A stretch of 23,543 nt of DNA from a virus: positions 1 through 23,543 of IMG/VR virus record IMGVR_UViG_3300021405_000368; one strand, 5' to 3'. The notes under the pieces were generated by a model that was given only the letters and a program-made list of their open reading frames with translations, was not told the DNA's origin and did no database searches. Every line of letters starts with the position of its first letter. Position 1 is the first letter of the stretch. A program made the translations under genes and the position numbers. Shown here in pieces: positions 3,357 to 16,761 of this stretch.

Positions 3357-3665
3357 ATGGGCGTTCTGGAAGAAGGCGTCAAGACCGCTGGCGGCATCGT
3401 CGACGCCCTGCGCCAGCAGCCGCTCGCCCTGGCGATGGGCTTGATGAACATCGCGCTGTTGCTGTTCCTGTTTTATTACCTGTCCCGCATCACCAGCCGC
3501 ACTGAGACGACCGTGGCGGCGCTGTTCGCCGCCAACGACAAGCTCTATTCGCAATGGACGGAGATCATCAAAGACACCAACGCGCTGGTCGACAAGAGCA
3601 CCCACTGCATCATGCCGGAGGACGCGCTGAAGCTCATGCAGGCGCAACGGCCGCCGACGCCCTAG
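3357..3665 (+). CDS. Single-TM protein, candidate holin or lysis accessory
   Basis: A 102-residue protein with one strong hydrophobic segment (LALAMGLMNIALLLFLFYYL, residues about 23-42) preceded by a short amphipathic N-terminus. A soluble charged/helical domain follows (RTETTVAALFAANDKLYSQWTEIIKDTN). The ATG at 3357 is preferred over a GTG at 3336 because GAGGAGGAG lies six bases upstream of it. It directly follows the endolysin, where holins and spanin-like proteins are encoded, so a role in releasing or timing the endolysin is plausible. It lacks any family-specific signature, so holin is inference. Its TAG stop shares a CTAG tetranucleotide with the stop of the convergent gene on the other strand (3662-3665). 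Confidence 0.7.
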   Translation: MGVLEEGVKTAGGIVDALRQQPLALAMGLMNIALLLFLFYYLSRITSRTETTVAALFAANDKLYSQWTEIIKDTNALVDKSTHCIMPEDALKLMQAQRPPTP

Positions 3666-4216
3666 CGCGATTCCATCACCACGTTGATGACCTCGCCGCC
3701 GAGCGCCGCCGCCGTCTCGGCGAGGCTATGGGTCTTGGCGGAAAGGTTGCTCCCGACCTCGTTCCATTGTCCGTCGCGCGACAGCGCCGGCGGAAAGATA
3801 ACGAGGCCGCGCTCATTGTTCCAGCGCACCAGCCCGACGATGTTTTCCTCCGCGCGCCGCTCAAGGTAGCGGCGCAGCGCCGGGTCGCGATGCGCGTCGG
3901 GAAAGTTCGGGTCGACCCAGATCTGCACCGCCTGGATAGCTTCCCGCTCGCCCGTCTCGTTGTTCAGCATGGTGATGTAGTCGGGTATGACGTCGAGGAC
4001 ATAGTGCGAGCGGTTGGGGCGCGAGAGATCCGCGGTGTCGTTGTTGCCCAGCCAGCGGCACGTCCAGAGCGCGCATTCCGGCGGCATCCCTGGCTTGTGG
4101 TAGACGAGGCAGCCCTTGCCGGCCTTCTGGTGGCGGCAGCGCACGCCCGCGTCTTTGCCGAGCGAGTTGACCGGGACCAGCTTGCAGCACAGCTGGCAGT
4201 CGCCGCACTGTCTCAT
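3662..4216 (-). CDS. YkgJ-like cysteine-cluster protein
   Basis: A 184-residue protein with an N-terminal cysteine cluster: C4, C7, C10, C11, C27, C36, C48 and C53. This pattern belongs to the YkgJ (Fe/Zn-S cluster) family, whose biochemical role is unsettled. The remaining 130 residues contain DVIPDYITMLNNETGEREAIQ and LVRWNNERGLVIFPP and show no enzyme motif I can name. The start at 4216 overlaps the upstream gene's stop by ATGA; the frame extends further upstream, but that part lies inside the preceding gene. It is the last gene of a leftward six-gene operon adjacent to attP and ends on the same CTAG as the lysis gene opposite. Similar proteins occur in tail or end regions of prophages; a cargo or morphogenesis role is possible. 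Confidence 0.7.
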   Translation of the reverse strand: MRQCGDCQLCCKLVPVNSLGKDAGVRCRHQKAGKGCLVYHKPGMPPECALWTCRWLGNNDTADLSRPNRSHYVLDVIPDYITMLNNETGEREAIQAVQIWVDPNFPDAHRDPALRRYLERRAEENIVGLVRWNNERGLVIFPPALSRDGQWNEVGSNLSAKTHSLAETAAALGGEVINVVMESR

Positions 4217-6055: not shown

Positions 6056-7156
6056 CTAGCGTCCATGCGCCTTGCGGGTGATGGCGTTGGCGACCGCCTT
6101 GTGCTGCTCGGGACAGTGGTGCCCGTAGACCTTGAGGATCACCTGCGGCGAAACGCCGAAGAAGCCGCTGACCTCCCAAATCGAAGCGCCATTCTGCAGC
6201 GCCCAAGAGATCGCCGTATGGCGCAGCGTATGCGCCGACACCTTACCCTCCAGTCCGGCGTCGGCGACGCAGCGAGCGAACGCCTTCTTGACGCTCCCGA
6301 CCGGCTCGCCATTGAACTCCACGACCGCCTTCAGCGAAATGCCCCGACGCTTCCATCGGCGTATATGGGCAAGCAGACGATCCGGCAAGCGGACGGGCGG
6401 CTGGCGCTTGTTCGTCTCTGCTGTTCCGGACGCGCGGCGATAGAGGACGCCTTGTTCGAGGTCGACGTAGCCACGGCCGATCGCCGGACCCATGGCCGCC
6501 CCGCAGACCGCCGCCGAGCGCGTCCCGGTGTAGAGCGCCACCAGAATGAACCTGGCTAGGTGCTGTCGGGACAGGCGGCCGATCTCCCCGCCTCGTTCGC
6601 GCTGCCGAAAGCGCCACGCTGCCCACAGCAGCCTTGCCGCCTCCGACCGCGTGAGCCATCGGTCGCGGGCAGGAGCCTTCGCTGGCAATTCGATGTCCCG
6701 GCGAAAATCGACGTTGAGAATCTTTTCTTCGTATGCGTGGCCAAGCGCCGCGCTCAAATCTTCAAGCTCACGTCTGGCCGCCTGTTCGCTGCCGCGAGCT
6801 TCCGCGTAGGTCCGGCACAAGCGTTTGTTCAGCGCCGTCACCGGCTTCGTTCCGAAAAACTCAAGCAGCTTCACCACCCGCTGCCCGAGCGCCTCAGGCC
6901 GGGCGATCTTCGCGCCGCGGTCCTGCTGGTAGATGTTCAGGAGTTCGGCGAGCGTGATGGCAGCGGGGTCACGTCCGCTGTCGTAGTTCGGCTTGATGCG
7001 GGCGGCGAGGTATTCCGCGAGCTTTTCTTCAGCCCCCGCGCGGTCATCAGCGCCGCAGCCAGTTGCAATTTTGCGTCCGTCGTCACGGATGTACCAGAGC
7101 TTTTTCCCCCGGACGTCCCGGAGCCAGAGACGGGCTGGTTTGGCTGCGTTCGACAT
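6056..7156 (-). CDS. int: Tyrosine recombinase / phage integrase
   Basis: A 366-residue site-specific recombinase that should integrate the phage at a tRNA-Val gene. An N-terminal beta-rich arm-binding segment (LWLRDVRGKKLWYIRDDGRKI, about 10-30) precedes the SAM-like core-binding domain (about 68-160). The catalytic domain shows Arg in YTGTRSAAV (R213), HTLRHT (H309, R312) and the nucleophile in LKVYGHH (Y344). A Lys near 250 (TNKRQ) fits the beta-hairpin lysine. The usual second His region reads FFGVSPQV, a variant common in this subgroup. Its stop is about 30 bp from the right attP arm. The excisionase-like gene overlaps its 5' end by 220 bases. An operator-like repeat upstream of xis (7377-7397) probably controls both. 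Confidence 0.95.
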   Translation of the reverse strand: MSNAAKPARLWLRDVRGKKLWYIRDDGRKIATGCGADDRAGAEEKLAEYLAARIKPNYDSGRDPAAITLAELLNIYQQDRGAKIARPEALGQRVVKLLEFFGTKPVTALNKRLCRTYAEARGSEQAARRELEDLSAALGHAYEEKILNVDFRRDIELPAKAPARDRWLTRSEAARLLWAAWRFRQRERGGEIGRLSRQHLARFILVALYTGTRSAAVCGAAMGPAIGRGYVDLEQGVLYRRASGTAETNKRQPPVRLPDRLLAHIRRWKRRGISLKAVVEFNGEPVGSVKKAFARCVADAGLEGKVSAHTLRHTAISWALQNGASIWEVSGFFGVSPQVILKVYGHHCPEQHKAVANAITRKAHGR

Positions 7157-8561: not shown

Positions 8562-9821
8562 TCACGCGCGCGCTTTCATGGTTTCGGCGGCGATCTGCTT
8601 CAGCCGGCGGGTGTGGCCAGCGGTCAAGACCGCCAGTTCGTCGCCGTTGAGATCGTCGTCGAGCCAGCGATCGAGCGCGGCTGCACCCTTCTCGCGCGCG
8701 ATCCTTTCGCCGGTCTGCATGAGATCCTGGAGCAGCGCGCCGCGATCGAGCGCCGCATTGTCATCGGGCAGGCTGTCGTCGGGCGGCGGCGGCGCCGACC
8801 GGGGCGGCGCAGCGGACGCAGGGCGGCCAGCCTGATCACCCGAGGCCGGCGGGAGAGGACGCCCTTGCCCTGCGTCACGCGCGCCGGCAGCGACGCTCTC
8901 GTCTGCCGTCGTTTCGGGAGGGGAGTCCCCCGAAATCTGATCTCTGATTTCGCCCGTCTCCGGGTCGTGTGGAATGTCCTCGACCCCGGCCAGCGCGTCG
9001 AGGCGGGCGATCAACGACTTGGGGCGGGGGCCGGCCAGGACCTTATCACTGGCCCCCTTCAGATCATAGAGTTCATCGTCGCGGTGGAGGAGATCATCGA
9101 GATCGGTCGACATCGGCAGCACTTTGGAGTGCCGACGCGCCACCGTCTTTTTCGCCGCCTCGTCGTAGCTCTTGACCCACATCGCCGAGAAGTTGCCGTC
9201 CCTGTCGGGCCTGGAGTAGGCGTCGCGCACACAGTCGATCTCGAACCGGCTCATCACGTCGCGGCTCTTCTCGCCGGTCTTCAGGACCGCGATCGAATAG
9301 GCGAAAGTCAGCGGGCCGGGGTCGATGTGCGCGCGCAGCCGCGCGGCATATTGCTCGTCGCTCTCCGCGCCCGATCGTTCGAGCGGCCTCGGCATGTAAG
9401 GCTTGTGCTTGATGTAGGGATCGTCGCCCTCCTCGTAATCGAATTTGTCCTTCAAGTGGACGGCGTGCACATCCCAAGTCGAGATGGTGTCGCTGTTCCT
9501 CACCTTCTTTCGAAGGCCTGCGATCATCGGCATCCAGACGACCTTGTCGATCCACTCTTTGCCGACTCTCGTCGAATAGATGACAAGCGCCCCTTCCCTG
9601 CCGTCAGGCAGAAGGCCGTCCTGCGCCGCCTTCATGCACGAGGTCCACAAGCTCTGGCGGTCCGCGGTCGCCAGTTTCGGATTGGTCTGGACCGCTGTCA
9701 GGACGACGCGGACGAACTGCTCGACCCGAATATGTCCAGGCAGCGCGGCTTTGAACTGTGGCTGGCGCTGGCCGAGTTCGGCGGCGATCGTCGGTTCCCT
9801 GATTGCAACGTCCGAATTCAT
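8562..9821 (-). CDS. recT: RecT-family single-strand annealing protein
   Basis: A 419-residue protein. Residues about 15-230 carry the RecT core: ALPGHIRVEQFVRVVLTAVQTNPKL, then SLWTSCMKAAQDGLLPDGREGALVIY, WMPMIAGLRKKVRNS and DEAAKKTVARRHSKVLP. RecT promotes annealing of complementary strands and pairs with a 5'-3' exonuclease, here probably the YqaJ-type gene further up the same operon. The C-terminal 150 residues are an Ala/Pro-rich linker plus a small helical domain (RWLDDDLNGDELAVLTAGHT), making it longer than a typical RecT of about 270-300 residues. Start at 9821 is firm: AGGAGGAG lies four bases upstream. Confidence 0.9.
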   Translation of the reverse strand: MNSDVAIREPTIAAELGQRQPQFKAALPGHIRVEQFVRVVLTAVQTNPKLATADRQSLWTSCMKAAQDGLLPDGREGALVIYSTRVGKEWIDKVVWMPMIAGLRKKVRNSDTISTWDVHAVHLKDKFDYEEGDDPYIKHKPYMPRPLERSGAESDEQYAARLRAHIDPGPLTFAYSIAVLKTGEKSRDVMSRFEIDCVRDAYSRPDRDGNFSAMWVKSYDEAAKKTVARRHSKVLPMSTDLDDLLHRDDELYDLKGASDKVLAGPRPKSLIARLDALAGVEDIPHDPETGEIRDQISGDSPPETTADESVAAGARDAGQGRPLPPASGDQAGRPASAAPPRSAPPPPDDSLPDDNAALDRGALLQDLMQTGERIAREKGAAALDRWLDDDLNGDELAVLTAGHTRRLKQIAAETMKARA

Positions 9822-10774: not shown

Positions 10775-11101
10775 TTACGCCGCCAGCTTCACCGCACTTA
10801 ACCGCTGCGTATGGCTCAACTGCACACGGCGCAGAACAACCTGCATGGAACGGGCGATAGCGGCCTCCTTCGCGCTGGCGACCGCGCTGAACCCCGACTT
10901 CTTCGCCTTCTCCTTGATCAAGGCGGCGGCGAAAATCTTGTCCCCTATGACGCTCCCGGTGACGGCGTTTGTGTTCTTCACGGCTTCAAGATATTCGCGC
11001 AGCTTCTCGTCGCCCCAGTGCTCGCGGACAAGAACTTGGACCTCCTCCAGGATTGAGGACTTTTTCTTGGTGACGATGGGAAAAATAGCCGGCAGCGTCA
11101 T
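10775..11101 (-). CDS. Small phage protein next to the exonuclease
   Basis: A 108-residue, Lys-rich protein: ILEEVQVLVREHWGDEKLRE, then YLEAVKNTNAVTGSVIGDKIF, then AAALIKEKAKKSGFSAVASAKEAAIARSM. It is helical, with no enzyme motif. Its ATG overlaps the exonuclease stop (ATGA, 11098-11101), so it is translationally coupled to it and could be a partner or modulator. It is followed by an intrinsic terminator. I do not recognise a family. Confidence 0.65.
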   Translation of the reverse strand: MTLPAIFPIVTKKKSSILEEVQVLVREHWGDEKLREYLEAVKNTNAVTGSVIGDKIFAAALIKEKAKKSGFSAVASAKEAAIARSMQVVLRRVQLSHTQRLSAVKLAA

Positions 11102-12045
11102 GCTTTGAACTCCTTCACTTTGATGGCGCGGTACGAAGTCGCCTTGACCACGTACTCGGCCCGCTTGACGGTCTTCGCTGTGATCACCCGGCCGTCCCCG
11201 AGCGTTCCCCGCGCGGCGTTGCCGAGCAGATGAACCAGTTCCGTGTCGAGAGGCTTGCGCTCCTTGCCGGCGGCGTCGCCGGCGCTCTCGATCGTCTTAA
11301 GCCGCTGGCGCTCCTCGACTAGCTCGAGCGCGCGCTCGTTGCCGGTCAGATCAACCTCACCGCCGTCGTCGTCGGCGTAGACCCGCGCCAGGGTCGCTGC
11401 GTCTTTTCCGTAGTCAGGCGGGTAAGGATCGTTGTCCACCACCCGCCGCCAGAAATCGGCGACCAACACGCGCAGCCGGACGATCAGCCCCGGCCGAAGC
11501 GGCACGTCCGCGACGTGCATCTCGAGGCCGCCGTCGCCGAGCGCCATGGCGGCGATCGCCGCCCACTTGGCGCCGGTCAGCGCCGCCTCGACGCTTGCCT
11601 GGACCGCAATCCACAGCGGGACCTCGACCTCGCCGTCCTCGCCCCGCCAGCCTTTCTTAAACGCGAAGTGGCCGACCGTCTTGATCTGGACGACGCCGGT
11701 CCCTTCGACGTCGGGACGCGACGCGAGCGCGTCAGGCGTCGCGCCGAGCCGCTGCTCGCCGTCGCGGTAGTAGAAACGGTGCGGCTGGATGATCCACTCG
11801 GGCTTTTCTTCCTGCAGCAGCTGCAACGCGATCGGCTCAAGAAGCCGTCCGCGTCGCATCGCCGACGTCTCGCCGGAATCTTCCGTGAGCAGTCCGCGCT
11901 TGAGGCACCACAGCCCATAGGGCGTCATGTACGGGTGGACCTCGGGACCGAAGAGCGCGGCGGCGACCGAGGCGGTCACGTCCTGTTCCCGCCTCGCCAG
12001 CCACGACGCACGATCGGTGATCGCGAATCTTGCGATCTCGTTCAT
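11098..12045 (-). CDS. YqaJ-type viral recombinase / exonuclease
   Basis: A 315-residue PD-(D/E)XK-fold nuclease of the YqaJ / lambda-exonuclease class, expected to resect double-stranded ends for RecT. Visible motifs are RRGRLLEPIALQLL (E70), RLGATPDALAS (D105), VVQIKTVGHFAFKKGW (Q120-I-K122) and VPLWIAVQASVEAALTG. The catalytic Glu of E-x-K is replaced by Gln, which is odd for an active nuclease but may be normal in this subgroup. The ATG at 12045 overlaps the preceding stop by ATGA; upstream open frame is Arg-rich and rejected. After about residue 200 the protein carries a charged helical C-terminal extension. Confidence 0.85.
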   Translation of the reverse strand: MNEIARFAITDRASWLARREQDVTASVAAALFGPEVHPYMTPYGLWCLKRGLLTEDSGETSAMRRGRLLEPIALQLLQEEKPEWIIQPHRFYYRDGEQRLGATPDALASRPDVEGTGVVQIKTVGHFAFKKGWRGEDGEVEVPLWIAVQASVEAALTGAKWAAIAAMALGDGGLEMHVADVPLRPGLIVRLRVLVADFWRRVVDNDPYPPDYGKDAATLARVYADDDGGEVDLTGNERALELVEERQRLKTIESAGDAAGKERKPLDTELVHLLGNAARGTLGDGRVITAKTVKRAEYVVKATSYRAIKVKEFKA

Positions 12046-12347
12046 GCGGCCTCGTCCCCTATGCCAACGAGGCCGCCGCGCTTGACCCAGGCGTCGTAGT
12101 TCTCTTCGCTTCCCCAACAGCCGCGCGGCAGGCTGTTGACCAAGAGGCGCGCGTAGCTCGGGACGATGTGGGCGTTCTCATCGTCGGCGCGACCCATCGC
12201 CTCCATCAGGTCGTTCTTAAACAGCGCCTGGAGGAAATGCCCGGGCGGTATCCCGCGCTCGACATAGCGGACGATGCCGGCGCGCATCCGCTCCGGCACA
12301 TCGCGCCAGTCGACCTTCTCGCGCCACGCCATCGTCGGCGCGTTCAT
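12042..12347 (-). CDS. Conserved phage protein of unknown function
   Basis: A 101-residue protein with ERMRAGIVRYVERGIPPGHF, LQALFKNDLMEAMGRADDEN and YARLLVNSLPRGCWGSEENY. The arrangement R-Y-x-E-x-G-I-x-P-G-x-F-L, then NDL-x-E-A-x-x-R-A-D, then L-P-x-x-C-W-G-S is one I recognise from small proteins in many tailed phages; none has a function known to me. It is coupled by ATGA to the exonuclease below and, unusually, to the PEP-CTERM gene above (12344-12347). Confidence 0.75.
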   Translation of the reverse strand: MNAPTMAWREKVDWRDVPERMRAGIVRYVERGIPPGHFLQALFKNDLMEAMGRADDENAHIVPSYARLLVNSLPRGCWGSEENYDAWVKRGGLVGIGDEAA

Positions 12348-13072
12348 GCCGCCGTGGCCGTGCTGCGGCGGCGAGCGGCGAGGCCGACGAGCGCCGCGAA
12401 GCCGATCAGCATCAGCGCCCAGGTCGAGGGCTCCGGCACGACGCCCGACTGCATGTTTTGGGAAAAGCCCGTCACGCTGCCGCCGGTGATCAAATTAAGC
12501 GAAGCGCCTTCGGTCATGCTGAACGGCGCGAGCGCGTCGAACGGCTTGGTCAGGCTGCCGCTGAAGCTGTCGGGGTTGGTGAGCGGCGTGCCTGTCACCG
12601 TGGCCAGCAAGGCACCAGGGGTATTGTTGGGGTTCGCCCCTTGGGCGCCCGCCGCGTCGGCCCAGAATTGCTCGGTCGAGGCCGGTGAGCCGACGGCGTC
12701 GTTGAAGGTCAGCGACGCGCTGTTTTTGATGAAACTCACCGGCGGGACGAAACCGGTGTCGCTCGCCAGGAGCTTGATGTCGATCGGCGCGCCGCTCTCG
12801 TTGATGATGTTTGCGCTCGACAGGGTGAGCTCGTTGACCGCGCCGAAGCTCGAGGTGGCGAGCGTGATCTGCGCGAACGCACCGCCGATCGTTTGGTCGA
12901 TCGTCAGCAAATTGTTTGCCCCGCCGCTCACGTCGCACGACAATTGACCGTCGAAGCAGGTGAACGTTGAGCCGTTGGCCGAGATCGAGAGTTGCAGGCG
13001 CGCGTGCGCGGGCGTCAGGCCGGCCGCGATGATGAGAGCCGCGGCGGATATTGAGACAATGGTGGATCGCAT
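12344..13072 (-). CDS. Secreted PEP-CTERM (PEPxxWA-type) protein
   Basis: A 242-residue exported protein. Residues 1-24 are a clear Sec signal (MRSTIVSISAAALIIAAGLT followed by PAHA, then Arg). The middle is a Ser/Thr/Asn-rich beta domain with one likely disulphide pair in TFTCFDGQLSCDVSGG. The C-terminus has the full tripartite sorting signal: VPEPSTWA, a hydrophobic helix LMLIGFAALVGLA and an ARRRS cluster. Such proteins are processed by a host exosortase and placed at the cell surface or in extracellular matrix. A Shine-Dalgarno AAGGAA precedes the ATG. Its stop overlaps the next phage gene (ATGA), and it lies within the early recombination operon, a very unusual place. The fold and sorting signal are clear; the biological role (surface alteration, exclusion or passive cargo) is unknown. 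Confidence 0.9.
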   Translation of the reverse strand: MRSTIVSISAAALIIAAGLTPAHARLQLSISANGSTFTCFDGQLSCDVSGGANNLLTIDQTIGGAFAQITLATSSFGAVNELTLSSANIINESGAPIDIKLLASDTGFVPPVSFIKNSASLTFNDAVGSPASTEQFWADAAGAQGANPNNTPGALLATVTGTPLTNPDSFSGSLTKPFDALAPFSMTEGASLNLITGGSVTGFSQNMQSGVVPEPSTWALMLIGFAALVGLAARRRSTATAA

Positions 13073-13104: not shown

Positions 13105-13142
13105 AGGAGGGCTGGAGGGGGCGGCTCCAGCCCGTCCTTTTT
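13105..13142 (+). terminator. Terminator-like hairpin, plus strand
   Basis: GGGCTGGAG (13109-13117) and CTCCAGCCC (13125-13133) form a 9-bp stem, extendable by GGA/TCC around a bulge, followed by TTTTT (13138-13142) on the plus strand. No plus-strand gene lies upstream, so what it would terminate is unclear. On the minus strand it sits in the leader of the PEP-CTERM gene without a T tract. Confidence 0.45.
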
Positions 13143-13152
13143 CAGTGAGCGT

Positions 13153-13710
13153 TCAGGGAGGCGTTTCCGCGAGCGGCGGTTTGCCCTGCAACGCGCGCTG
13201 CCGGTCACGCTCGGCAGGTGTCAGCGGCGGCCTAATGCGCTCGGTCGTGTCGTAGCCGCGCGCTTGTAGCCACGCGACGCTCTCGGCCAGCATGGCGTCG
13301 GTGGCGTCGAGCCACTGGAGCCTGGCCCTGTGGACCGTCGCCAGCGGCACGTCGGGAAAGTCCGGCGGCCCGGGACCATTGAGGTCCCGCCATTCTCTCG
13401 CCGCTTCCTCGGTCGGATTGCGGAGCACCGCGTCGCGCTTTTCGAGAAACTCCTCGAGGGCTGTCTTGTCGCTCATGGCTTTGTTCCCTTGGCCACCTCC
13501 GCGAGCGGCGGCCGCGTGATGAGCCGCGCAATAGCGCGACCTCCCGTCGTTCGTGGCGTTGCAGAAGCGGAACGGCGGGCCACAGAGGGCCCACCGGCAG
13601 CCGTCGGGTTTGAGGTCGGGAAACCGGACGGTCGTGACCCGTTCGGGCCCAGGCGGCCGCGGTGGCCGCGGCGTCTGCGGTGCAGGCCGCCGGTGCAGCG
13701 TCGCGGTCAT
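13153..13710 (-). CDS. GcrA-like zinc-cluster protein with helical C-terminal part
   Basis: A 185-residue protein. Residues about 36-65 (PDGCRWALCGPPFRFCNATN followed by DGRSRYCAAHHA; C38, C43, C50, C61, H64/H65) resemble the C-terminal cysteine/histidine region of GcrA cell-cycle regulators; the N-terminal GcrA DNA-binding helices are absent. After a Gly-rich link, an unrelated helical segment begins at an internal ATG (residue 79, nt 13476; SD AAGGGA upstream) and runs through LEEFLEKRDAVLRNPTEEAA to the stop. This may be one fusion or two products from one frame. The ATG at 13710 is chosen over a GTG at 13719 because GGAGGA is nine bases upstream. Confidence 0.6.
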   Translation of the reverse strand: MTATLHRRPAPQTPRPPRPPGPERVTTVRFPDLKPDGCRWALCGPPFRFCNATNDGRSRYCAAHHAAAARGGGQGNKAMSDKTALEEFLEKRDAVLRNPTEEAAREWRDLNGPGPPDFPDVPLATVHRARLQWLDATDAMLAESVAWLQARGYDTTERIRPPLTPAERDRQRALQGKPPLAETPP

Positions 13711-13715
13711 GCCGG

Positions 13716-13934
13716 TCACTCCTCCGGGTCGATGGTCGTCAGGACGGTCACGCGGAGCGCGACGGCGACGGCGTCGACGACCTCGTCGGACATGATGGCG
13801 AGAGCGGCCGCGAAATGGTCCGGCACAAGGAGCTCGCTTTCGATGAAGGCCTCGGCCTCGCGGCGCAGGCGCCGGCGCGTTTCCGGCGTCATCGGAATGT
13901 CGAGGATGCTGAAGTCGGGAGCGTCGCTCGTCAT
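13716..13934 (-). CDS. Small acidic phage protein, first gene of the early left operon
   Basis: A 72-residue protein (MTSDAPDFSILDIPMTPETR, then RRLRREAEAFIESELLVPDHF, then helical to the end). It is acidic at both ends with a basic helix near residues 20-26. No family is recognised. GGGAGGG lies about nine bases upstream of the ATG. It is the most upstream gene of the leftward operon and the operator-like repeat at 14008-14030 lies 74 bases upstream, so it would be transcribed first on derepression, the place where phages often put early regulators or host-takeover proteins. The function is unknown. Confidence 0.65.
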   Translation of the reverse strand: MTSDAPDFSILDIPMTPETRRRLRREAEAFIESELLVPDHFAAALAIMSDEVVDAVAVALRVTVLTTIDPEE

Positions 13935-14893: not shown

Positions 14894-15224
14894 GTAGCGC
14901 CTCCAGGAAGTCGACGTCGAGCGGCGGCAGGTCGGCAAGATGAAATAGGCCTCCCGCGTCGGCTACCTCGACGCCGCTGGCGCCCTGGCCGGTCATCAGC
15001 CAGTCGATCGAAGCGCCGGTGATCTCGGCGGCCCGGATCAGGTTCTTGCGGGTAATGCCTGCGCCAGTATCCCAATTGCTCACTGCGCCTCGCGTGACGC
15101 CCATGGCGGCGGCGAAGGAGGTCTGCGAGAAGCCTCTGGCTTCGCGGGCCGCCTTCACCCTCGCCCCTACCGTCGCTGCTTTCATCATGCGCGGAATTTT
15201 GCCTGACGGCGTAAGCGCCGTCAT
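14724..15224 (-). CDS. CI-type XRE repressor without peptidase domain
   Basis: A 166-residue regulator. The N-terminal domain (GARVKAAREARGFSQTSFAA, AMGVTRGAVSNWDTGAG, ITRKNLIRAAEITGASIDWL) is a canonical XRE/lambda-repressor HTH. The C-terminal 90 residues are helical and lack the Ser/Lys active site of S24/LexA peptidases, so induction would need a route other than RecA-stimulated self-cleavage. ATG 15224 is chosen for AGAGG eight bases upstream; ATG 15188 is an alternative that keeps the whole HTH. It is divergent from the Cro-like gene, and operator C lies between them, the standard genetic-switch layout. It is the likely binder of the ATGCAAG-N5-CTTGCAT sites. Confidence 0.8.
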   Translation of the reverse strand: MTALTPSGKIPRMMKAATVGARVKAAREARGFSQTSFAAAMGVTRGAVSNWDTGAGITRKNLIRAAEITGASIDWLMTGQGASGVEVADAGGLFHLADLPPLDVDFLEALLSATLAALGLSAEKSAFLARAVIGAARRPQSEQEAGFGEDLTTRVAAALARAILSQ

Positions 15225-15252
15225 TGACAGAGCCTCTGGTGTCCACAGGACA

Positions 15253-15284
15253 ACGCAAGCGTAACTTGCATCAGAATGCAAGTT
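15253..15284. promoter_or_regulatory. Operator C between repressor and cro-like gene
   Basis: ACGCAAG-N5-CTTGCAT (15253-15271) matches operators A and B with one mismatch. It is followed by another half-site, ATGCAAG (15276-15282), which also forms an outward inverted repeat AACTTGCAT / ATGCAAGTT around four bases. Three half-sites in 32 bp between divergent regulators suggest a compound operator, as in lambda OR. Confidence 0.7.
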
Positions 15285-15320
15285 GTGGTCTCTTTTCCGC
15301 CCATGTTGGATCTCCCCCCA

Positions 15321-15530
15321 ATGACCGCGCCCGCCGAAGCCGCCCTCGAGCGCGCCAAAGACGCAGTCGGCGGCGCCGCCGTCCTCGCCCGTCGACTGAC
15401 CGTAATCGGCCGCCCGATCACTACGCAGGGCGTCTCAGCATGGCGTCGCGTGCCTGCCGAGCGCGTCGTCGACGTGGAACGCGCCACCGGCGTTTCCCGC
15501 CAGGAACTACGACCCGACCTCTACCAGTAA
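15321..15530 (+). CDS. Cro/YdaS-like antirepressor
   Basis: A 69-residue DNA-binding protein: MTAPAEAALERAKDAVGGAA, then VLARRLTVIGRPITTQGVSAW, then RRVPAERVVDVERATGVSRQ and ELRPDLYQ. The helix-turn-helix followed by VPAER...IE..TGVSR..LRPD(L/I)Y is the signature of YdaS/Cro-family proteins opposite phage repressors. Starts at 15303 or 15276 are possible; 15276 lies inside the operator, and the YdaS pattern usually begins near MT..., so 15321 is preferred. No good Shine-Dalgarno sequence is visible for any of them. It is the first gene rightward, and should act on the same operator as the repressor. Confidence 0.75.
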   Translation: MTAPAEAALERAKDAVGGAAVLARRLTVIGRPITTQGVSAWRRVPAERVVDVERATGVSRQELRPDLYQ

Positions 15531-15591
15531 AAACAAATCAGACCGGCTGTTTGCGTTCACTAACGCCGTCAACAAAGGATTGGAAGCCCCC

Positions 15592-16095
15592 ATGGACGCA
15601 CCGAATCTGACAATCCTCGAGCAGGCGCGCGACGAAATCGTCAAGCTCTTGGCCGACAAGCGGCACGAGCATTCGCTCTACATGCAGCGCTGCAAAGGCA
15701 TCACCGCGTCGATCAAGGACTGGAAGGACAAGGCCAAGGAGGCCGGCGCGCCGCGCGTCGCCTTCAACGGCCTCCTGAAGTTTATCGCCCTCAACGACAA
15801 GCTCGACGCGCTGACGCAGGACATGGACCAGGCCGACGCGGAGGCCTGCGACTTCCTGATCGAGCGGCTGGGCGCGTTCGCCGACACCGAACTCGGCGAG
15901 GCCGCCGTCCGCGCCGCGGGCGAGGTCAAGGTCAAGAAGCCGAAAAAGCCGCGCAAGACCAAGGGCGCAGTTCCCGAAGGCGTGAGCGGCGACGTGCTGG
16001 CGAAGCTGATCGATGACACGCCGCCCTCCGATGAGGAGACTGACGTCCGGCCCGCCTTCCTGCGCGATAAGGAAACCGCCGCCGCGCCGCTCTGA
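15592..16095 (+). CDS. Charged helical phage protein, unknown
   Basis: A 167-residue protein. Residues 5-110 are helical (ILEQARDEIVKLLADKRHEH; ITASIKDWKDKAKEAGAPRV; ALNDKLDALTQDMDQADAEA). A Lys-rich segment KVKKPKKPRKTKG (about residues 120-132) and an acidic tail follow. The pattern of a charged helix pair followed by a lysine stretch suggests DNA binding; a distant resemblance to GapR/DUF2312-like proteins is possible but not firm. The ATG at 15592 is chosen over TTG 15580, which directly abuts the AAAGGA. It is the first gene of the replication block after the cro-like gene. Confidence 0.6.
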   Translation: MDAPNLTILEQARDEIVKLLADKRHEHSLYMQRCKGITASIKDWKDKAKEAGAPRVAFNGLLKFIALNDKLDALTQDMDQADAEACDFLIERLGAFADTELGEAAVRAAGEVKVKKPKKPRKTKGAVPEGVSGDVLAKLIDDTPPSDEETDVRPAFLRDKETAAAPL

Positions 16096-16110
16096 CCGGG
16101 CGGAACGGCG

Positions 16111-16761
16111 GTGGCCGTCGCGCCCTATCTCCTGTCCCTAGACATCGCGACCGTGACCGGCGTCTGCGAGGGCCGCGTCGGCGAGCCGCCGCGCTTTGAG
16201 ACCTTGCGCTTCGGCACCGACGGCGATGAACACGAGGAGGCGTTCTGCCGGTGCCTGCGATGGATCGCCGGTCGGCTGACCGCCGAGCCGCGCCCCGACG
16301 CCGTGTTCGTCGAAGCGCCGGTTAATCCCGGCGCCTTTATGGGCCGCTACAATCCCGACAAAGGGAAGGTCGACATGACGACCAACCCTGAGACGACGAT
16401 CCGCCTCATGGGTTTATGGGCGATCATCGCCGCCGCCGTGAAGGTTCGCGGCATCCGCTATCAGCGCGTCGACGTCCGCACCGCGCGCAAGGAATTCCTC
16501 GGCAATGGCGGCTTGAAGCGCGACGAGGCCAAGCGCCGCGCGTTCGAAATGTGCAAGCTCCTCAATTGGTCGCCGACCAATCGGGACGAGGGCGACGCGG
16601 GCTGCGTTCATTATTACGGCTCGATCATCCTCGCCCCGCGCCTCGCGCCGGTCGTCACACCCATGATGTGGGGCAAGATCGCCTCCACCATCGCCGGCGT
16701 CGAGATCCTCGGCGACGCCGCCGAGCGCATCCTGCGCAAGCTGGAGAAGGCGAACTCATGA
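16111..16761 (+). CDS. RuvC-like Holliday-junction resolvase
   Basis: A 216-residue RNase H-fold nuclease. The acidic residues are placed as in phage/pox RuvC proteins: LLSLDIATVTGV (D11), DAVFVEAPV (E68) and NRDEGDAGCVHYYG (D159/E160/D162) near the C-terminal helix. It should resolve branched DNA made by recombination or replication before packaging. It starts at a GTG 15 bases after the preceding stop and overlaps the next gene by ATGA. Its location in the right operon, with RecT and the exonuclease in the left operon, is usual for temperate phages. Confidence 0.85.
   Translation: MAVAPYLLSLDIATVTGVCEGRVGEPPRFETLRFGTDGDEHEEAFCRCLRWIAGRLTAEPRPDAVFVEAPVNPGAFMGRYNPDKGKVDMTTNPETTIRLMGLWAIIAAAVKVRGIRYQRVDVRTARKEFLGNGGLKRDEAKRRAFEMCKLLNWSPTNRDEGDAGCVHYYGSIILAPRLAPVVTPMMWGKIASTIAGVEILGDAAERILRKLEKANS

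Follow-up and report, generated by a model that had tools for sequence, protein, structure and literature searches.

A complete PEP-CTERM gene in a phage recombination operon

The window, i.e. the whole stretch of 23,543 nucleotides analysed here, is a fragment of a siphophage-type soil phage which carries a RecET-type operon and an integrase, as well as genes for a tail protein, an MT-A70 methylase and a primase-helicase. Within the operon, an ATG-initiated open reading frame preceded by an AAGGA ribosome-binding-like stretch corresponds exactly to a gene encoding a PEP-CTERM protein, made up of a signal peptide, a body of ~187 amino acids and a PEPxxWA-CTERM tag (Table 1). Three profiles recognise the tag over residues 212-236: NF035944 PEPxxWA-CTERM (40.8 bits, cut-off 35), TIGR02595 (23.6 bits, cut-off 16) and PF07589 (33.3 bits, cut-off 20.7). 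The C-terminal features of a PEP-CTERM substrate, i.e. motif, helix and basic end with an HMM score above cut-off, are thus all present; at the N-terminus, the residues read as a Sec signal peptide with a predicted end at AHA|RLQ, of which A22 and A24 are invariant in alignments of the family. The signal peptide and sorting tag announced in a preliminary description of this DNA are therefore both confirmed.

Table 1 Features of the window and PEP-CTERM genes of other phage contigs.
Feature	Position	Strand	Remarks
PEP-CTERM protein gene	12344..13072	-	242 aa; ORF and profile matches
PEPxxWA-CTERM sorting tag	12365..12439	-	residues 212-236: PEP motif, membrane helix, RRR
Signal peptide MRSTIVSISAAALIIAAGLTPAHA	13001..13072	-	residues 1-24; predicted cleavage after AxA
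Mature ectodomain	12440..13000	-	residues 25-211; predicted beta-sandwich; invariant C39 and C46
ATGA stop/start overlap	12344..12347	-	coupling signature
101-aa ORF, no known family	12042..12347	-	96-aa homologue in L069 borders the same slot
YqaJ/RecE-type exonuclease	11098..12045	-	phrog_434, PF09588
RecT recombinase	8562..9821	-	profile match
Tyrosine integrase	6056..7156	-	phrog_1
GcrA-like C-terminal motif and 107-aa ORF, upstream of the slot	13153..13719	-	below Pfam cut-off
9-bp GC-rich hairpin just upstream of the gene	13109..13133	.	strong; T-run on + strand (opposite)
Adjoining PEP-CTERM family, first	L036:10586-11275, L038:5134-5817, L045:9036-9725		
Adjoining PEP-CTERM family, second	L015:10826-11638, L037:10748-11530, L047:6554-7261		
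Adjoining PEP-CTERM family, third	L023:10701-11471, L029:10731-11522		
Family E members	L269, L270, L271, L272, L273, L274, L275, L276, also L218		

The stop codon of the gene (TGA, 12346-12344) and the next start codon (ATG, 12347-12345) share ATGA, an overlap of 4 bp; that the two genes overlap had been pointed out before and is borne out here. Downstream follow, in order, the 101-aa ORF, the exonuclease, two small genes and RecT. Placement between a GcrA-like gene and the exonuclease block had also been proposed: the exonuclease side holds, while the GcrA-like label is tentative, since the C-terminus encoded upstream (CRWALCGPPFRFCN...YCAAHHAAAAR) reaches 15.9 bits against a Pfam cut-off of 26.9. 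The gene sits in the operon and no promoter of its own was found in the window. Elsewhere in the window, a cysteine-rich ORF (MRQCGDCQLCCKL..., 3662-4216, minus strand) is 87.5% conserved in contig L069.

The AlphaFold2 model of the protein (pLDDT 88.6) consists of a beta-sandwich and a C-terminal helix spanning residues 215-241. The ectodomain bears the motifs QGANPxNTPG, DPDSFSGS and PFSMTEGA; alignments of the family show that both cysteines, C39 and C46, are nearly invariant, as are motifs that include DPDSFSGS and PFSMTEGA. The body matches no family in Pfam or NCBIfam, and sequence searches revealed no credible relative of solved structure. Foldseek searches returned generic jelly rolls alone, mostly with TM scores below 0.45. 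Many of these weak matches are carbohydrate-binding modules and tailspikes; because they are weak and generic, we treat glycan binding by the ectodomain as a hint.

A phage-specific family under purifying selection

Three scans of IMG/VR yielded relatives in 62 contigs, a count that includes the window's own record (L002) and near-duplicates, encoding proteins 36-71% identical to the window protein. Two scans of GTDB (84,980 species genomes) gave 107 and 85 pattern matches, all unrelated, and hence no relative; these relied on short peptide patterns of the same kind as the IMG/VR scans, which distant homologues could escape. There was no family member among 50,697 phage records, isolate phages included, and no relative among 72,556 plasmids, where matches were to the tag only or absent. 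Within the sensitivity of these scans, the family is phage-specific and no stray host gene. A bacterial root at a distance is suggested by L067, the most divergent member. Among the matches listed for a DNA pattern scan with PEPxxWAM, most belonged to an unrelated lipoprotein-like ORF, the others being family member L186 and further tagged proteins.

The gene's neighbours on carrier contigs encode portal, terminase, major head protein, virion proteins, baseplate wedge, helicase and integrase. Besides the siphophage-type window, the carriers include podophages and one contig that has baseplate genes, and their GC content ranges from 37 to 67%. Some have an integrase but most large carrier contigs show none, which makes a purely lysogenic role doubtful; as the contigs are perhaps fragments, this is no proof of virulence. 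The nearest portals are those of Ochrobactrum and Sinorhizobium phages. Together with the GcrA-like sequence and the PEPxxWA tag, they point to hosts that are probably Alphaproteobacteria.

All 56 full-length members retain a hydrophobic signal peptide with an AxA-type end, a PE[P/A/T] motif (PEP in 47, PEA in 5 and PET in 4), a membrane helix and a basic end, while their bodies diverge down to 36% identity. Where dS could be measured, pairs of members give dN/dS values of ~0.15-0.3. GC3 of the gene is correlated with the GC content of its contig over the whole 37-67% range (r=0.93), indicating long residence in phages. Together with a codon model score of 59 for the window gene, this purifying selection and the 62 contigs with relatives establish the gene as real, far beyond chance. 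In one clade (L025, L046 and L055), the same body carries a canonical PEP-CTERM tag instead of PEPxxWA, a swap that is expected if the tag has to fit a host enzyme.

A mobile accessory gene

The preliminary description had raised the possibility of PEP-CTERM genes at the same position in other phages. Such genes exist in far greater number than expected, but their position varies: the family occupies many unrelated places in different phage types, mostly away from recombination operons such as that of the window phage. Four podophages have it in antisense orientation between the terminase and portal genes, three carriers have it beside an integrase, and others beside a helicase. A proline/glycine-rich protein with GIWGGPPxYxDIGGPG repeats (cluster c2), which has no PHROG, often adjoins the PEP-CTERM gene in different phages (L004, L007, L012, L015, L019 and others).

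Two empty or refilled sites are particularly clear. Firstly, the PEP-CTERM gene is missing from the window phage's closest relative, L069 (exonuclease and integrase 81%, RecT 76%), where an unrelated ORF of 162 aa fills exactly the same slot; the gene is therefore accessory. Secondly, the terminase-portal junction measures 102 bp in L073 and 901-1019 bp in the gene-bearing podophages L016, L020, L022 and L024, to which L073 is 86% identical in portal protein and 90% in terminase protein. As in a moron, the gene thus lies between core genes and is missing or replaced in close relatives. Absence from related phages with a precise deletion scar had been put forward as a sign of recent chance cargo; the replaced slot in L069 supports accessory status, but an old family kept by purifying selection is not recent chance cargo. 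By eye, HNH-type endonuclease-like ORFs fill the terminase-portal junction in two further contigs (L076:2300-3125 and L084:2907-3777).

Movement between unrelated phages is seen in L015 and L017, which are sisters in the tree (100/99) and share DNA almost solely over the gene. L015 carries baseplate genes, L017 has a podophage-type portal, and the contigs are otherwise unrelated. L017 also has an ORF (15192-16241) that by eye resembles adenylosuccinate synthetase, possibly a PurZ-like DNA-base modification gene.

Some members come with signals of their own: a terminator accompanies 11 of 57, against 4 of 570 shuffles, and 3 of 53 have a strong sigma-70-like promoter, against 0.4% of shuffles. 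No host sigma-54/PEP-CTERM-box promoter was found upstream.

Unrelated PEP-CTERM families in related phages

In eight carriers, a second, non-homologous PEP-CTERM gene adjoins the family member; these second genes form three mutually unrelated families (Table 1). Of 16 podophage contigs selected by their portal, all 30 kb or longer, 13 encoded a PEP-CTERM protein. Leaving aside three already-known carriers, the fraction is 10 of 13 related podophage contigs chosen irrespective of a PEP-CTERM gene, mostly with members of a fifth phage family, family E (ITVEDIGAVLNxSLALPAE...). Family E is common in soil podophages, occurs in two copies in contig G033 and is borderline to FxDxF (46.3 bits versus 50). 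Two more PEP-CTERM families are found in L277 and L278. A perfect sigma-70 consensus, TTGACA-N17-TATAAT, precedes the family E gene in L275 and L276.

In related phages, the 100 bp upstream of different PEP-CTERM genes agree in a terminator hairpin and the segment after it: in L005, L006 and L008 they precede a gene of family A (the window family), in L269, L271 and L272 one of family E. Ectodomains thus seem to have been exchanged behind a common upstream region.

A proposed model for surface display through the host exosortase

Exosortase substrates cross the inner membrane through Sec and are held there by the PEP-CTERM helix; once cut, they reach the surface or the matrix and retain exopolysaccharide at these sites (PMC12188702, PMC9850573). 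None of 30 carrier contigs encodes an exosortase, and the phage would therefore use that of its host. A secreted protein with the complete architecture of an exosortase substrate, kept under purifying selection, moved between unrelated phages and swapped in its slots, suggests that many phages use the host exosortase to display a protein of their own on infected cells. Our preferred reading, to which we give a probability of roughly 0.6, is that the gene is a mobile accessory gene of the moron type, the product of which is sorted by the host exosortase to the surface or matrix, with superinfection exclusion as the likeliest pay-off. The protein would be exported via Sec during infection or lysogeny, and its C-terminal helix would keep it in the inner membrane until the host exosortase cuts it and hands the ectodomain on to the outer surface or into the matrix of exopolysaccharide. 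An infected cell would thereby acquire an altered surface, and the modelled beta-sandwich may bind a surface glycan, stopping adsorption of competing phages. We favour exclusion of competitors as the probable benefit because many large carriers have no visible integrase.

The same delivery could instead serve the matrix of the lysogen or infected cell, through adhesion, aggregation or exopolysaccharide retention. Host PEP-CTERM proteins do keep exopolysaccharide attached to cells and promote flocs and biofilm (PMC9850573, PMC12188702), and some carriers have an integrase; but many large carriers have none, a gain in matrix is of little use in a short lytic cycle, and the body alone matches neither the flocculation protein PepA nor any other family. 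We consider this benefit unlikely, though worth keeping in view.

Alternatively, the helix could be a mere membrane anchor for a protein that does not leave the inner membrane or periplasm in the lytic cycle and modulates for example lysis or DNA entry, with no part for an exosortase. A signal peptide and a C-terminal helix would be enough for that, the 30 carrier contigs searched have no exosortase, and the gene is present in apparently virulent contigs. An anchor, however, needs neither the P-E motif nor the basic end that all 56 members conserve, and it accounts poorly for the exchange for another type of exosortase tag and for several unrelated bodies with the same tag; we regard this reading as improbable. 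Quite improbable, too, is a soluble role, in which the mature protein would be set free around the time of the burst and, as a decoy or part of the matrix, bind competing phages or free glycan, although release of exosortase substrates is possible (PMC12188702) and the two invariant cysteines suit an extracellular protein. That the gene is a chance-caught host passenger useless to phages, as its absence from L069 might suggest, is largely refuted and extremely improbable given its phage-wide spread with no bacterial source found, purifying selection, GC adaptation and recurrent independent placements.

Surface display through the host exosortase may extend well beyond this family. We tentatively propose, as a possibility somewhat short of even odds, that soil phages with several morphotypes, some temperate and others probably virulent, make wide use of exosortase through at least seven swappable PEP-CTERM families, single or in tandem, such that one host enzyme displays whichever ectodomain the phage supplies and tags are re-fitted when the host changes. 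A large phage-only family, and unrelated tagged families in the same slots, mark the exosortase system as worth hijacking. They provide a natural set of ectodomains for testing, may reveal a new route by which phages remodel Gram-negative surfaces, and help to narrow down which hosts many soil phages infect; these hosts would be exosortase-positive and probably Alphaproteobacteria.

Comparison with known systems

Exosortase substrates are regarded as chromosomal proteins of biofilm-forming bacteria, with roles that are mostly unclear. The phage proteins resemble the substrates described by NF035944, TIGR02595 and PF07589 in their signal peptide, PEP motif, helix, basic end and divergent body; they differ in being phage-borne, in having a body outside Pfam and NCBIfam and in lacking an accompanying exosortase in the 30 carrier contigs searched. 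In the literature searched, which covered few subscription journals, we found no paper on phage-encoded exosortase substrates apart from a listing of TIGR03118 proteins as host-derived in Yellowstone hot-spring viruses (PMC11003980). These share a putative exosortase tag with the proteins studied here and are the only earlier mention found; they belong to a different family and are a list entry, the mechanism of which is not discussed (PMC11003980).

As for morons, lambda Lom and Bor and T5 Llp are known examples that encode surface or superinfection-exclusion proteins. P22 SieA likewise serves superinfection exclusion (PMC10883804). The PEP-CTERM gene is like them accessory and mobile, with an exported product; by analogy, delivery would here go via the host exosortase and not as an integral membrane protein or lipoprotein.

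Flocculation PepA of Zoogloea and Aquincola (NF033554) also bears a PEP-CTERM tag, and L046 alone gives a weak end-to-end match to it. Homology was rejected as its 47 bits fall below the 80-bit cut-off; the match vanishes when the tag is removed and is therefore to the tag.
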